Shown: positions 2-60,412 of the stretch, piece after piece
How the letters are laid out: the number at the start of each line of letters is the position of its first letter
Position numbering within the stretch: position 1 is the stretch's first letter
From: Hyphomicrobiales bacterium
GTDB lineage: Bacteria; Pseudomonadota; Alphaproteobacteria; SPJN01
Direction of reading: 5' to 3'
Assembly: GCA_006844605.1 (NCBI GenBank)
Contig: SPJN01000014.1
Location: 1-64,000, forward strand
DNA length: 64,000 nt
Notes under the pieces: generated by a model
What the model saw: the letters and a program-made list of their open reading frames with translations, nothing else
What the model was told of the DNA's origin: nothing
Database searches by the model: none
Translations under genes and position numbers: made by a program

Positions 2-1303
2 GCAGAACGGGTAACCAGCTATTGGAATCCCGGCCCGACTATTGGCGCGGCAATTGTTTTCCCCCGGTCTACGGATGATGTCAGCTACATCCTGAAAACT
101 TGCCATGATCATGATCAGGCGGTGGTTGTACAGGGCGGTAAAACCGGTGTTGTGCAGGGGGCAGAGGCAACGGCGTCTGACATCATCATTTCGTTTGAGC
201 GGATGAAAGGCGTTGAGGATATTGATGTGACGGGCTGTACAGCTTCCGTACAGGCTGGTGCCGTACTGGAGGCGGTGCAGACACAAATCGCAGCACAGGG
301 ATTGTTGTTTCCACTTGATCTTGGTGCGCGCGGGTCCTGCACAATCGGCGGCAATGTGGCAACCAATGCGGGCGGCATCAATGTGATCCGCTATGGCATG
401 ATGCGCAATCTGGTGCTGGGGTTGGAGGCTGTTTTGGCGGATGGCACGGTTTTGTCGTCTATGAACTATATGTTGAAGAACAATGCGGGCTATGATCTGA
501 AGCAGTTGTTTATCGGATCGGAAGGCACGTTGGGTATTGTGACCCGTGTCGTGATCCGCCTATTCCCCGCGCCACTGACCAGTCAATCTGCCCTTGTGGC
601 CATGACGGATTTTACCGCCGTAACTGATTTTTTACGGCAATCCAGTCAGGCGTTGGGTGGTGACCTGTCAGCCTATGAGGTGATGTGGGGTGATTATTAT
701 CGTGCCGTAACAGGCCCTGACCTGCATCGCGCGCCCTTGGCCCGCGACCACGCCTTTTATGTCGTGCTGAAGATGGAGGGGAGTGACCCTGCGGGGGACC
801 CCGCGCGCTTTGAAGGGCTGCTGGCCGACGCATTGGAACGCGGCGTGATCGCGGATGCCGTTGTGCCCCAATCTGAGCGGGAGGAGCTGGATATCTGGAC
901 TGTGCGTGAACAGTTTGAGCCGTTATTCGTTCATGCCCCTGTGTTTTTATATGATGTCAGCCTGCCGATTAAGGACATGGCGGCATATGTCACCGAGGTG
1001 GAGCAACGTATTGCGGCCCAATGGCCTGACGGCATGTGCTTTGCGCTGGGTCATATCGGCGATGGCAATTTGCACTTTTTTGTGGCGCCAAAGGATGACA
1101 CTGCCACTCACGCACAGGCGGACGGGATTATTTACGGCGCCTTGGTTCCCTATAGCGGCTCAGTCTCGGCCGAGCATGGCATTGGGCATGAGAAAAAGGG
1201 CTGGTTGTCAGCCTCGCGTACAGCAGACGAAATTGCGGTGATGCAATTGTTGAAGCGCACATTGGACCCCAAGGGCATCCTTAATCCGGGCGTTGTTCTG
1301 TAA
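2..1303 (+). CDS. FAD-linked oxidase, GlcD/D-lactate dehydrogenase-like (5' truncated by window edge)
   Basis: Frame is open from base 2 (AERVTSYWNPGPTIGAAIVFPRSTDD...) into the 393-aa ORF; FAD-binding motif GGNVATNAGGINVIRYG and C-terminal GHIGDGNLHFF...SAEHGIGHEKKGWL typical of the FAD_binding_4/FAD-oxidase_C family. Confidence 0.9.
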   Translation, partial: AERVTSYWNPGPTIGAAIVFPRSTDDVSYILKTCHDHDQAVVVQGGKTGVVQGAEATASDIIISFERMKGVEDIDVTGCTASVQAGAVLEAVQTQIAAQGLLFPLDLGARGSCTIGGNVATNAGGINVIRYGMMRNLVLGLEAVLADGTVLSSMNYMLKNNAGYDLKQLFIGSEGTLGIVTRVVIRLFPAPLTSQSALVAMTDFTAVTDFLRQSSQALGGDLSAYEVMWGDYYRAVTGPDLHRAPLARDHAFYVVLKMEGSDPAGDPARFEGLLADALERGVIADAVVPQSEREELDIWTVREQFEPLFVHAPVFLYDVSLPIKDMAAYVTEVEQRIAAQWPDGMCFALGHIGDGNLHFFVAPKDDTATHAQADGIIYGALVPYSGSVSAEHGIGHEKKGWLSASRTADEIAVMQLLKRTLDPKGILNPGVVL

Positions 1304-41069: not shown

Positions 41070-42077
41070 CTAATGTGTGACGGTAAGGACAATTTTGCCG
41101 ATATGGGCCGAAGATTCCATTAGTTCATGGGCCTTTGCAGCATCCTCAAGCGGGAATGTCTTGAAGACCTGCGGTTTGATTTGGCCATCTGCCACCAGCG
41201 GCATGACATGGGCCGTTAATTGATCGGCAATGGCTTTTTTATCGGCAAGATCCCGTGCCCGCAGGGTGGAGCCTGTGATGGTCAGCCGTTTGAGCATAAC
41301 AAGCATGAAATTCACTTCGGCGGTGGAGCCTTGCAAGAACGCGATAGAGACGAAGCGCCCCTCAACTGCCATGCATCCGATGGAACGGGGAATGTAATCA
41401 CCCCCGACCATATCAAGCACGACGTCAACGCCCTTGCCGCCTGTTTCGGCCTTGATCGCCTCGACGAAATCGTCTGTTTTGTAATTCACAGCCTTGGCTG
41501 CGCCCAGTTTTTCACAGGCGGTGCATTTTTCGTCCGACCCGGCGGTCGTATAAACCGTGTGCCCCAAGGCGGTGGCCATCTGGATTGCGGTTGTGCCGAT
41601 GCCGCTGGCGCCGCCATGCACCAACAGGCTTTCCCCTTCGGCAAGGCGGGCGCGGTCGAAAATATTGCTCCACACCGTGAAGAAAGTTTCAGGCAGGGCC
41701 GCCGCTTCTTCCATTGTCAGGCTACCGGGCACCATCAGGCAGGTTTCAACCGCCGCGCAGACATAGGCGGCATAACCGCCCCCTGCCACCAGCGCACATA
41801 TTTTGTCGCCAATGGTGAAGTGGCTGACGCCATCGCCCAGCGCCACAATGGTCCCTGCAACTTCAAGTCCCGGATGGGTTGGCGCACCCGGCGGTGCCGG
41901 GTACAGCCCCATGCGTTGAAACACGTCGGGCCGGTTGATGCCTGCGGCCTCAACCTTGATCAGCACTTCGCCCGCCTTGGGGGTTGGCACAGCCATTGTC
42001 ACGGGAACAAGGGCGTCTGGCCCGCCCGGTTCGGTGATGTCGATCGCGGTCATTGTGGTCGGTAACATGATGCTCAT
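41070..42077 (-). CDS. NAD(P)H-quinone oxidoreductase (zinc-type MDR, PIG3/Qor-like)
   Basis: VEAAGINRPDVFQRMGLYPAPPGAPTHPGLEVAGTIVALGDGV; LVHGGASGIGTTAIQMATALGH; start taken at MSIMLPTTM. Confidence 0.9.
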   Translation of the reverse strand: MSIMLPTTMTAIDITEPGGPDALVPVTMAVPTPKAGEVLIKVEAAGINRPDVFQRMGLYPAPPGAPTHPGLEVAGTIVALGDGVSHFTIGDKICALVAGGGYAAYVCAAVETCLMVPGSLTMEEAAALPETFFTVWSNIFDRARLAEGESLLVHGGASGIGTTAIQMATALGHTVYTTAGSDEKCTACEKLGAAKAVNYKTDDFVEAIKAETGGKGVDVVLDMVGGDYIPRSIGCMAVEGRFVSIAFLQGSTAEVNFMLVMLKRLTITGSTLRARDLADKKAIADQLTAHVMPLVADGQIKPQVFKTFPLEDAAKAHELMESSAHIGKIVLTVTH

Positions 42078-42341: not shown

Positions 42342-43598
42342 ATGAGTGATGCAACCTCAACAGAGGACGAAAAGCCGGGGCTGACGCCGGGGATGTTGTT
42401 CGTTCTGGCGATCATATTCATTGATACGGTCAGCTTTGGCATCATCATCCCCGTTATGCCTGACCTGCTGACGGATTTGACGGGGCAGCCGGTTGAAAAG
42501 GCAGCGGTTGAGGGGGGCATTTTGATGATTGCCTTTGCCCTGACGCTTTTTCTTTGTGCGCCATTGATCGGCGGTCTGTCTGACAGGTTTGGCAGGCGTC
42601 CATTGATGTTGGCATCAATGGCGGCCTTTACCATTGATTACATCATCATGGGCCTTGCCCAGTCATACGAGATGCTGTTGATCGGGCGTGTGGTTGCCGG
42701 GGTGGCCGGAGGTGTCTATGCAACGGCAAATGCCTATATCGCTGACATCAGCACGCATGAAAACCGTGCGCGCAATTTCGGTATCATTGGTGCTGCATGG
42801 GGCATTGGCTTTGTCACTGGCCCCGCGATTGGCGGCCTGTTGGGTGAGTTGGGGCCGCGCGTGCCGTTTTTTGTTGCGGCTGGATTTTGCGCGTTGAATT
42901 TCGTCTATGGATATTTTGTGGTTCCGGAAAGTCTGGCCCCAGAAAATCGGCGCCCATTCGATATCAAGCGCGCCAACCCTTTGGGCAGCCTATTGGCGCT
43001 AAAGCGCTTTCCCATGTTGTTGGGGCTGTTCGGTGTGATGGCCTTGTTTCAGGTCGGGCATGATGTGAACCCGACGATCTGGACCTATTACACAAAGTAT
43101 AAGTTCGGTTGGGGGCCCGGTGAAATCGGCTGGTCGCTTGCCATTGTGGGCATCACAATTGCGGTTGTGCAAAGTATGCTGACCGGGCGGCTGGTGGCGC
43201 GGTTTGGTGAATACCGGACGGCGCAGATTGGCCTGACATTGGGCGCATGCGGGTTCTTGGCTGTTGCCTTCGCCCCCAGTAGTTTTTGGATGTATTGCGC
43301 GATCCCGCTTAGCGGTATGTTCGCGTTGGCCTCCCCAACCATTCGGGCGATCATGGCCAATCAGGTGGGCGAGGATCAGCAGGGCGAATTGTCTGGCGCG
43401 CTGTCATCCCTGTTTAGCTTGTCCATGCTTTTGACGCCGCTTGTCATGCCGGCCTTGTTTGAGTTCTTTACCAGTGCGGCAGCGCCTGTGCACTTTCCCG
43501 GGATCGGTCATTTCTCTGGCGCTATCTTATTCGTGCTGGCGTTGCTGGCCTTTATTGTGGCGGGCCGGGGCAAGAGTTTGAATGCCAGCGACGGCTGA
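42342..43598 (+). CDS. MFS transporter, TCR/Tet-like
   Basis: 12-TM; FIDTVSFGIIIPVMPDLLTDLTG; LIGGLSDRFGRRPLMLASMAAFTIDYIIMG. Confidence 0.92.
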   Translation: MSDATSTEDEKPGLTPGMLFVLAIIFIDTVSFGIIIPVMPDLLTDLTGQPVEKAAVEGGILMIAFALTLFLCAPLIGGLSDRFGRRPLMLASMAAFTIDYIIMGLAQSYEMLLIGRVVAGVAGGVYATANAYIADISTHENRARNFGIIGAAWGIGFVTGPAIGGLLGELGPRVPFFVAAGFCALNFVYGYFVVPESLAPENRRPFDIKRANPLGSLLALKRFPMLLGLFGVMALFQVGHDVNPTIWTYYTKYKFGWGPGEIGWSLAIVGITIAVVQSMLTGRLVARFGEYRTAQIGLTLGACGFLAVAFAPSSFWMYCAIPLSGMFALASPTIRAIMANQVGEDQQGELSGALSSLFSLSMLLTPLVMPALFEFFTSAAAPVHFPGIGHFSGAILFVLALLAFIVAGRGKSLNASDG

Positions 43599-43654
43599 TA
43601 TGGTTAACGCCCCAAATCTGTTTTAGTTATTTAGGGCGTGATGCATTTTTGGGC

Positions 43655-43683
43655 TTGCCGCGTCAAACTGCCGCCTCTATAGT
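43655..43683 (+). promoter_or_regulatory. sigma70-type promoter of candidate sRNA
   Basis: TTGCCG (43655-43660), 17-nt spacer, TATAGT (43678-43683), no ORF directly downstream. Confidence 0.6.
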
Positions 43684-43687
43684 GCGG

Positions 43688-43817
43688 CCATCCTGTAATT
43701 GGTTGATCAATCGAATTTGAATGAATCAGGCAAGTTTAACAGGATGGCTTCACGTCAAAGACCGCATTCGCGATCCTTAATCCTGGGGGGGAGGTTGGAT
43801 CAGAATGCGGTCTTTTT
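43688..43817 (+). ncRNA. Candidate novel small RNA with 5' stem and intrinsic terminator
   Basis: CCATCCTGT (43688-43696) pairs with ACAGGATGG (43739-43747); terminator AAGACCGCATTC (43758-43769) / GAATGCGGTCTT (43803-43814) with nested GATCC/GGATC, followed by a run of 6 Ts. Confidence 0.55.
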
Positions 43818-43818
43818 T
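43758..43818 (+). terminator. Strong rho-independent terminator (12-bp stem)
   Basis: AAGACCGCATTC...GAATGCGGTCTT then TTTT. Confidence 0.85.
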
Positions 43819-43840
43819 ATTGGCGGATTTCCAGGCTCGG

Positions 43841-60238: not shown

Positions 60239-60412
60239 GTGTAGTGGTGCTGCGGCATGCGTTATGACCGCTATCATCCCGGGGACCATAACTATCCTTA
60301 GGGAGCTGTCCCTGCCTTGGTCCGTGGACCTTGGCATCACGGCGCCCACCTGACTTGTCAGGTTCCAGGGGTTGAAACTTTGGTCAGACGGTGTTCGTGG
60401 CCCACTATACTT
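60239..60412 (+). ncRNA. ssrS: 6S RNA
   Basis: Syntenic position zapA - 6S - ygfA; TATATT -10 at 60227; terminal stem GTGTAGTGG...CCACTATAC; long imperfect hairpin with CC/GG-rich arms; ends approximate. Confidence 0.82.

Follow-up and report, generated by a model that had tools for sequence, protein, structure and literature searches.

Gene architecture of the locus

We analyzed a 64,000-nucleotide stretch of DNA from a Hyphomicrobiales bacterium (assembly GCA_006844605.1, contig SPJN01000014.1, positions 1 to 64,000; termed the window below), concentrating on a candidate small RNA (sRNA) gene on the plus strand at 43655-43818, located between an MFS transporter gene and a convergent Hsp20 gene. 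An earlier sequence-only reading had proposed an sRNA at this site on the basis of a promoter, a 5′ stem and a terminator. Judging from sequence comparisons, the locus is probably an independent gene, the RNA of which would act as a sponge (anti-sRNA) that sequesters a trans-encoded SorX-like sRNA.

The predicted transcript spans 43688-43818 (+), ~130 nt. Upstream lies a predicted sigma70-type promoter (43655-43683, +), consisting of the -35 box TTGCCG (43655-43660), a 17-nt spacer and TATAGT (43678-43683); orthologous genes, introduced below, are preceded by promoters of the form TTGAC-16..19-TAnnnT. Taken alone, the promoter is weak evidence and near chance, with two sites matching at 9/12 positions in 1.6 kb as compared to 1.1 ± 1.0 in shuffled sequences. 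The transcript begins with a 5′ stem-loop (43688-43747, +), in which CCATCCTGT (43688-43696) and ACAGGATGG (43739-43747) form a perfect 9-bp pairing and the 3′ arm overlaps a conserved segment, here termed the anti-core. It ends in a Rho-independent terminator (43757-43818, +) with nested GATCC (43772-43776) and GGATC (43797-43801) and a T6 run (43813-43818). Promoter, 5′ stem and terminator were thus present on direct reading as previously described, save that the terminator stem, formed by AAAGACCGCATTC (43757-43769) and GAATGCGGTCTTT (43803-43815), comprises 13 bp (10 bp if the T run is not counted) and not 12 bp. A simple terminator scan missed it because the loop is too long. Folding of 43688-43821 yielded -57 kcal/mol versus -33.0 ± 3.4 kcal/mol for shuffled sequences (z = -7.05), a value matched by none of 200 shuffles.

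No plausible small open reading frame was seen at the site. In the Rfam scan, no family reached its gathering score over the site, and none appeared at E ≤ 10 except two miRNA models (E 0.18-0.24). The SorX model (RF02784, cut-off 46.6 bits) gave no match at the site on either strand, nor did the alphaR8/suhB model (RF00519, cut-off 41 bits) match there. With its end at 43598, the MFS gene has a terminator-like repeat of its own at ~43607-43640 (ACGCCC..GGGCGT); the window RNA, therefore, need not be an MFS 3′ untranslated region (UTR).

Complementarity to a SorX-like sRNA

Used as a query, the site matched one other place in the same genome (G000:C8:65950-65988) and one in a second genome (G042). 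At both places, the opposite strand corresponds to the core of an sRNA that has a good terminator; against SorX (cut-off 46.6), the two sRNAs score 33.8 and 43.2 bits, respectively. Relative to the terminator, the shared sequence has opposite strands in the SorX-like sRNA and the window RNA, making the latter an antisense of the SorX type and not a member of it. In the window genome, the partner SorX-like sRNA lies downstream of trxB and carries the terminator CCUCCCUGUUAAACUUGCCAGGUUCC-UUCG-GGAACCUGGCAUUUUUUU.

The full antisense stretch (43719-43757, +) shares 87% identity across 39 nt with the reverse complement of the partner (E 8.7e-7). Within it, 43729-43757 is antisense to the conserved SorX-like core GCCUCCCUGUUAAACUUGCC, and the anti-core GGCAAGTTTAACAGG (43729-43743, +) is complementary at 15 of 15 positions to CCUGUUAAACUUGCC of the partner (G000:C8, locus L003). 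Association of the two RNAs is predicted to be favored, with a heterodimer ensemble of -117.8 kcal/mol versus -109.0 kcal/mol for the separate RNAs, a gain of 8.8 kcal/mol with their own folds counted; the plain duplex is predicted at -99.8 versus -54 ± 5.5 for shuffles. Extended complementarity to an sRNA encoded elsewhere was thus found for the window RNA. The genome also holds one true mmgR/alphaR8 copy (G000:C11:66130, L004 1501-1578; 68.9 bits), a type that has CUCCCU and a terminator in common with SorX-like RNAs; its predicted pairing with the window RNA is weaker (gain 3.8 versus 8.8 kcal/mol). As a side observation, the terminator loop GGGGGGGAGG (43780-43796, +) is complementary to the CCCCCC loop of the SorX-like 5′ hairpin in L003, and the two could kiss. 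The wider similarity of C-rich and G-rich hairpins outside the core is not significant, being reached by 736 of 2,000 shuffles.

Such a match could also arise if the minus strand carried a SorX-like sRNA, or a decayed copy, in the Hsp20 3′ UTR, with the plus-strand features being incidental. This was the first idea considered. The minus strand holds GACGTGAAGCCatCCTGTTAAACTTGCC, which matches the SorX-like sRNA at 87% identity across 39 nt, and a C-rich loop resembling that of L003; however, its core lacks a following terminator, the otherwise constant CCUCCCUGU is altered to CCAUCCUGU, and the similarity beyond the core stays at the insignificant level given above. In relatives, moreover, promoter and terminator at the same syntenic locus lie on the other strand. 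On terminator, seed change and synteny we rejected the minus-strand copy, which we regard as very improbable.

Related genes across Alphaproteobacteria

We surveyed a sample of 385 alphaproteobacterial genomes with reversed patterns as control. The class-wide search matched 43 of the 385 genomes, 37 of them at a SorX-like core. The SorX-like RNA is mostly strikingly uniform (ACGUCU-CCC-AGACGU-GAA-GCCUCCCUGUUMAACUUGCC-terminator) and occurs twice in some genomes. None of 18 SorX-like loci tested passed Rfam cut-offs, the best weak match being mostly SorX or mmgR; among sponge partners, which range from 25 to 51 bits, only that of genome G390 (SorX, 51 bits) exceeds the cut-off of 46.6. The SorX-like loci (L003, L105-L132) are often preceded by a hairpin such as GATGTTGCGTTGCAACATC.

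A combined promoter and anti-core pattern, TTGAC-N16..19-TAnnnT-N6..36-GCAAGTTNRACAGG, was detected in 12/385 genomes (control 0), and all 12 have a SorX-like core at a different place (P = 1e-13 given 37/385). Other searches added to this set. Matches to the bare anti-core, with one disrupted base allowed beside the core, were intergenic with terminators downstream in genomes with a SorX-like core, the extra matches being mostly coding; when all near-core sequences in core-bearing genomes were collected, many more were found, mostly with TTGAC[CG]-17/18-TAnnnT directly upstream. A two-base-insert pattern with 2 mismatches gave 26 matches, mostly coding, and yielded G112, G158, G225 and G266. 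An hsp20-based scan (best identity 58%, no close relatives) yielded loci L077, L085, L088 and L090. Overall, a separate anti-core gene, usually with a promoter upstream and a terminator downstream, was present in ~23 genomes (the 12 pattern genomes plus G000, G112, G158, G215, G266, G381, G385, G386, G390, G391 and probably Asaia L085). The window gene shows the same combination of upstream promoter, anti-core and downstream terminator, with TTGCCG instead of TTGAC as its -35 box.

The anti-core is the only part in which these genes align with one another. The sequence-only reading had emphasized the 5′ stem and the G-rich terminator loop and suggested target prediction with the latter (CCTGGGGGGGAGG). 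Our comparison shifts the weight elsewhere: stems vary freely among relatives, the G-rich loop is absent from them, and what is conserved is the 15-nt GGCAAGUUUAACAGG (43729-43743), unmentioned earlier, through which the likely target would be another sRNA, in place of mRNAs contacted via CCTGGGGGGGAGG. In most sponges, the complement is broken at CUCC by a mismatch or inserted bases (AGGAUGG, AGGUUGAGG, AGGUCGAGG, AGGCAGG), a break that was required in part of the sampling (the bare anti-core search).

Conserved gene order

The genes around the window RNA, all Pfam-checked, comprise a zinc-type quinone oxidoreductase gene (QOR; 41070-42053, -), a DUF1192 gene (PF06698; 42148-42339, +), the MFS transporter gene (42342-43598, +), the Hsp20 gene (PF00011; 43841-44308, -) and the gene for ribosomal protein L31 (PF01197; 44521-44745, -). 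The resulting order QOR(-) DUF1192(+) MFS(+) RNA(+) HSP20(-) L31(-) resembles one recurring in 20 regions, QOR(-) DUF1192(+) sponge(+) [OAHS(+) a/b-hydrolase(+)] HSP20(-) L31(-), in which the sponge shares the strand of DUF1192 and opposes HSP20 and L31. Some of these regions have a partial gene set only, and that of G158 is rearranged; in L088, DUF1192, sponge and convergent HSP20 follow each other directly. The window RNA occupies the same position between DUF1192 and HSP20/L31 on the DUF1192 strand, and this matching gene order and orientation identifies it as a positional orthologue. With promoter, anti-core and terminator found at the same syntenic place in ~20 other alphaproteobacterial genomes, the earlier proposal of an independent plus-strand sRNA gene gains considerable ground.

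In seven genomes (G112, G134, G215, G225, G266, G385 and G386; tandem loci L246, L247, L244, L245, L236, L243 and L234), an sRNA with a CUCCCU core lies ~75-190 nt upstream of the sponge. That of G112 is a BjrC1505 member (RF02356; 51.5 bits, cut-off 50), and that of L090 scores 34.9 bits; the BjrC1505-type RNA is a neighbor and probable target of the sponge and is distinct from the window RNA. No tandem sRNA lies upstream of the window RNA, where the MFS gene occupies the place at which relatives have either no gene or the tandem sRNA. A similar tandem pair with a diverged core stands beside Hsp20 in an Asaia metagenome-assembled genome (L085 1576 and 1729, -). Elsewhere in the window, 6S RNA (RF00013, 61 bits; 60244-60407, +) is the sole Rfam family above cut-off.

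The recurrent order raises the alternative that anti-core and terminator form a cis-acting leader of the OAHS mRNA, with read-through controlled by the SorX-like sRNA and the window copy being a relic. In most syntenic loci, the sponge indeed immediately precedes a same-strand OAHS gene, which counts against an independent sponge. In the window, G215, G381 and L088, however, the next gene is the convergent Hsp20, leaving nothing to lead into, and promoter, anti-core and terminator nevertheless persist. We consider the leader unlikely, noting that the counterargument applies only where no same-strand gene follows.

Co-variation with the putative target in trans

At two or three positions, the core varies among genomes, and the anti-core matches it: most genomes have TC, whereas the window genome, G215 and G381 have TA, G386 has CT and G385 has CC. 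In G112, unusual bases occur on both sides (tandem sRNA AAACUUUC, sponge GAAGGUUU). In G390 (core UUGGACUUG, sponge CAAGUCUGA), a change from A to G is met by U to C, and the other differences give G-U pairs. Over CCUGUNNNACU, all 11 positions are paired in 10 of the 11 genomes compared. The summed duplex energy of the genomes' own pairs was -693.5, with -689.6 as the best of 300,000 permutations (0/300,000 better), in statistics that ignore phylogeny. Together with the 12/12 co-occurrence, the sponge thus both accompanies its putative target and changes with it.

These data also bear on the possibility that the sRNA acts mainly on its own mRNAs via the anti-core or the G-rich loop, its complementarity to SorX-like RNAs being a by-product of shared ancestry. 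Some sponges, such as SroC, also have mRNA targets (PMC9438474), and the GGGGGGGAGG loop is mostly exposed in the predicted fold. Against this stand the in-step changes of core and anti-core, the lack of any promoter-borne gene without a SorX-like core among the 12 pattern genomes and the missing loop in relatives. A primarily mRNA-directed role accordingly seems improbable to us.

Discussion

The interpretation of 43655-43818 as a sponge gene is backed by its gene architecture, complementarity, target co-occurrence, synteny over ~20 genera and co-variation in trans. The closest precedent among the systems compared is CrfA of Caulobacter crescentus, a sponge of the alphaR8 sRNAs SisA-D that sequesters them and lowers their level (PMC12559287). 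Like the window RNA, CrfA is an independent alphaproteobacterial sRNA complementary to a conserved CUCCCU-containing core of sRNAs (PMC12559287). Going by the description of CrfA, the window family differs in that its pairing segment, GGCAAGUUNRACAGG, mostly located close to the 5′ end, matches the CCUGUNNAACUUGCC portion of SorX-like RNAs and skips CUCC. In Rhodobacter, SorX acts as a repressor of potA and provides singlet oxygen resistance (PMC9438474).

We infer that the window RNA is transcribed under an inducing condition and may depend on Hfq. GGCAAGUUUAACAGG would pair with the CCUGUUAAACUUGCC core of the SorX-like sRNA (G000:C8), with additional pairing of GGCUUCACGUC with GACGUGAAGCC; at the CUCC seed, the pairing would be interrupted by a mismatch. 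Once expressed, the sponge would sequester the SorX-like sRNA, which would probably be degraded together with it, and this titration would release mRNA targets, presumably bound by CCUCCCU at Shine-Dalgarno-like sites. As an unbroken complement would be GGGAGG at this place, a Shine-Dalgarno sequence, we conjecture that the break may keep ribosomes off the sponge.

Besides the OAHS neighborhood, several observations weigh against this interpretation. The window promoter, with TTGCCG and not TTGAC, is weaker than those of the family, and the 3′ part of the anti-core lies largely inside the 5′ stem, such that the stem would have to open, or a chaperone assist, before the two RNAs could pair. Without the promoter, the anti-core pattern showed no enrichment (14 places versus ~22 control matches). 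The genome set contained no family- or order-level relatives of the window genome, which alone represents its order. G158 pairs at 10 of the 11 positions of CCUGUNNNACU with one U-U mismatch, and the co-variation effect rests on ~8 genomes with unusual bases.

We further lean towards an ancient sRNA/anti-sRNA pair, originally a tandem module of CUCCCU-core sRNA followed by sponge between DUF1192 and Hsp20, that was retained in many alphaproteobacterial families and co-evolved in them; the sponge gene would have held its position better than its target, and the CUCC break may avoid Shine-Dalgarno likeness. The sponge is probably a conserved control layer not yet in public RNA databases. Knowledge of sponge RNAs comes mostly from single species; the sponge gene described here can be followed by synteny across ~20 genera and changes in step with its target, which opens the age, conservation and co-evolution of sRNA antagonism to testing. 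The gene also offers a handle on SorX/BjrC1505-type sRNAs, which are widespread (37/385 genomes sampled) and mostly under Rfam cut-offs, and for which a second control layer is predicted.
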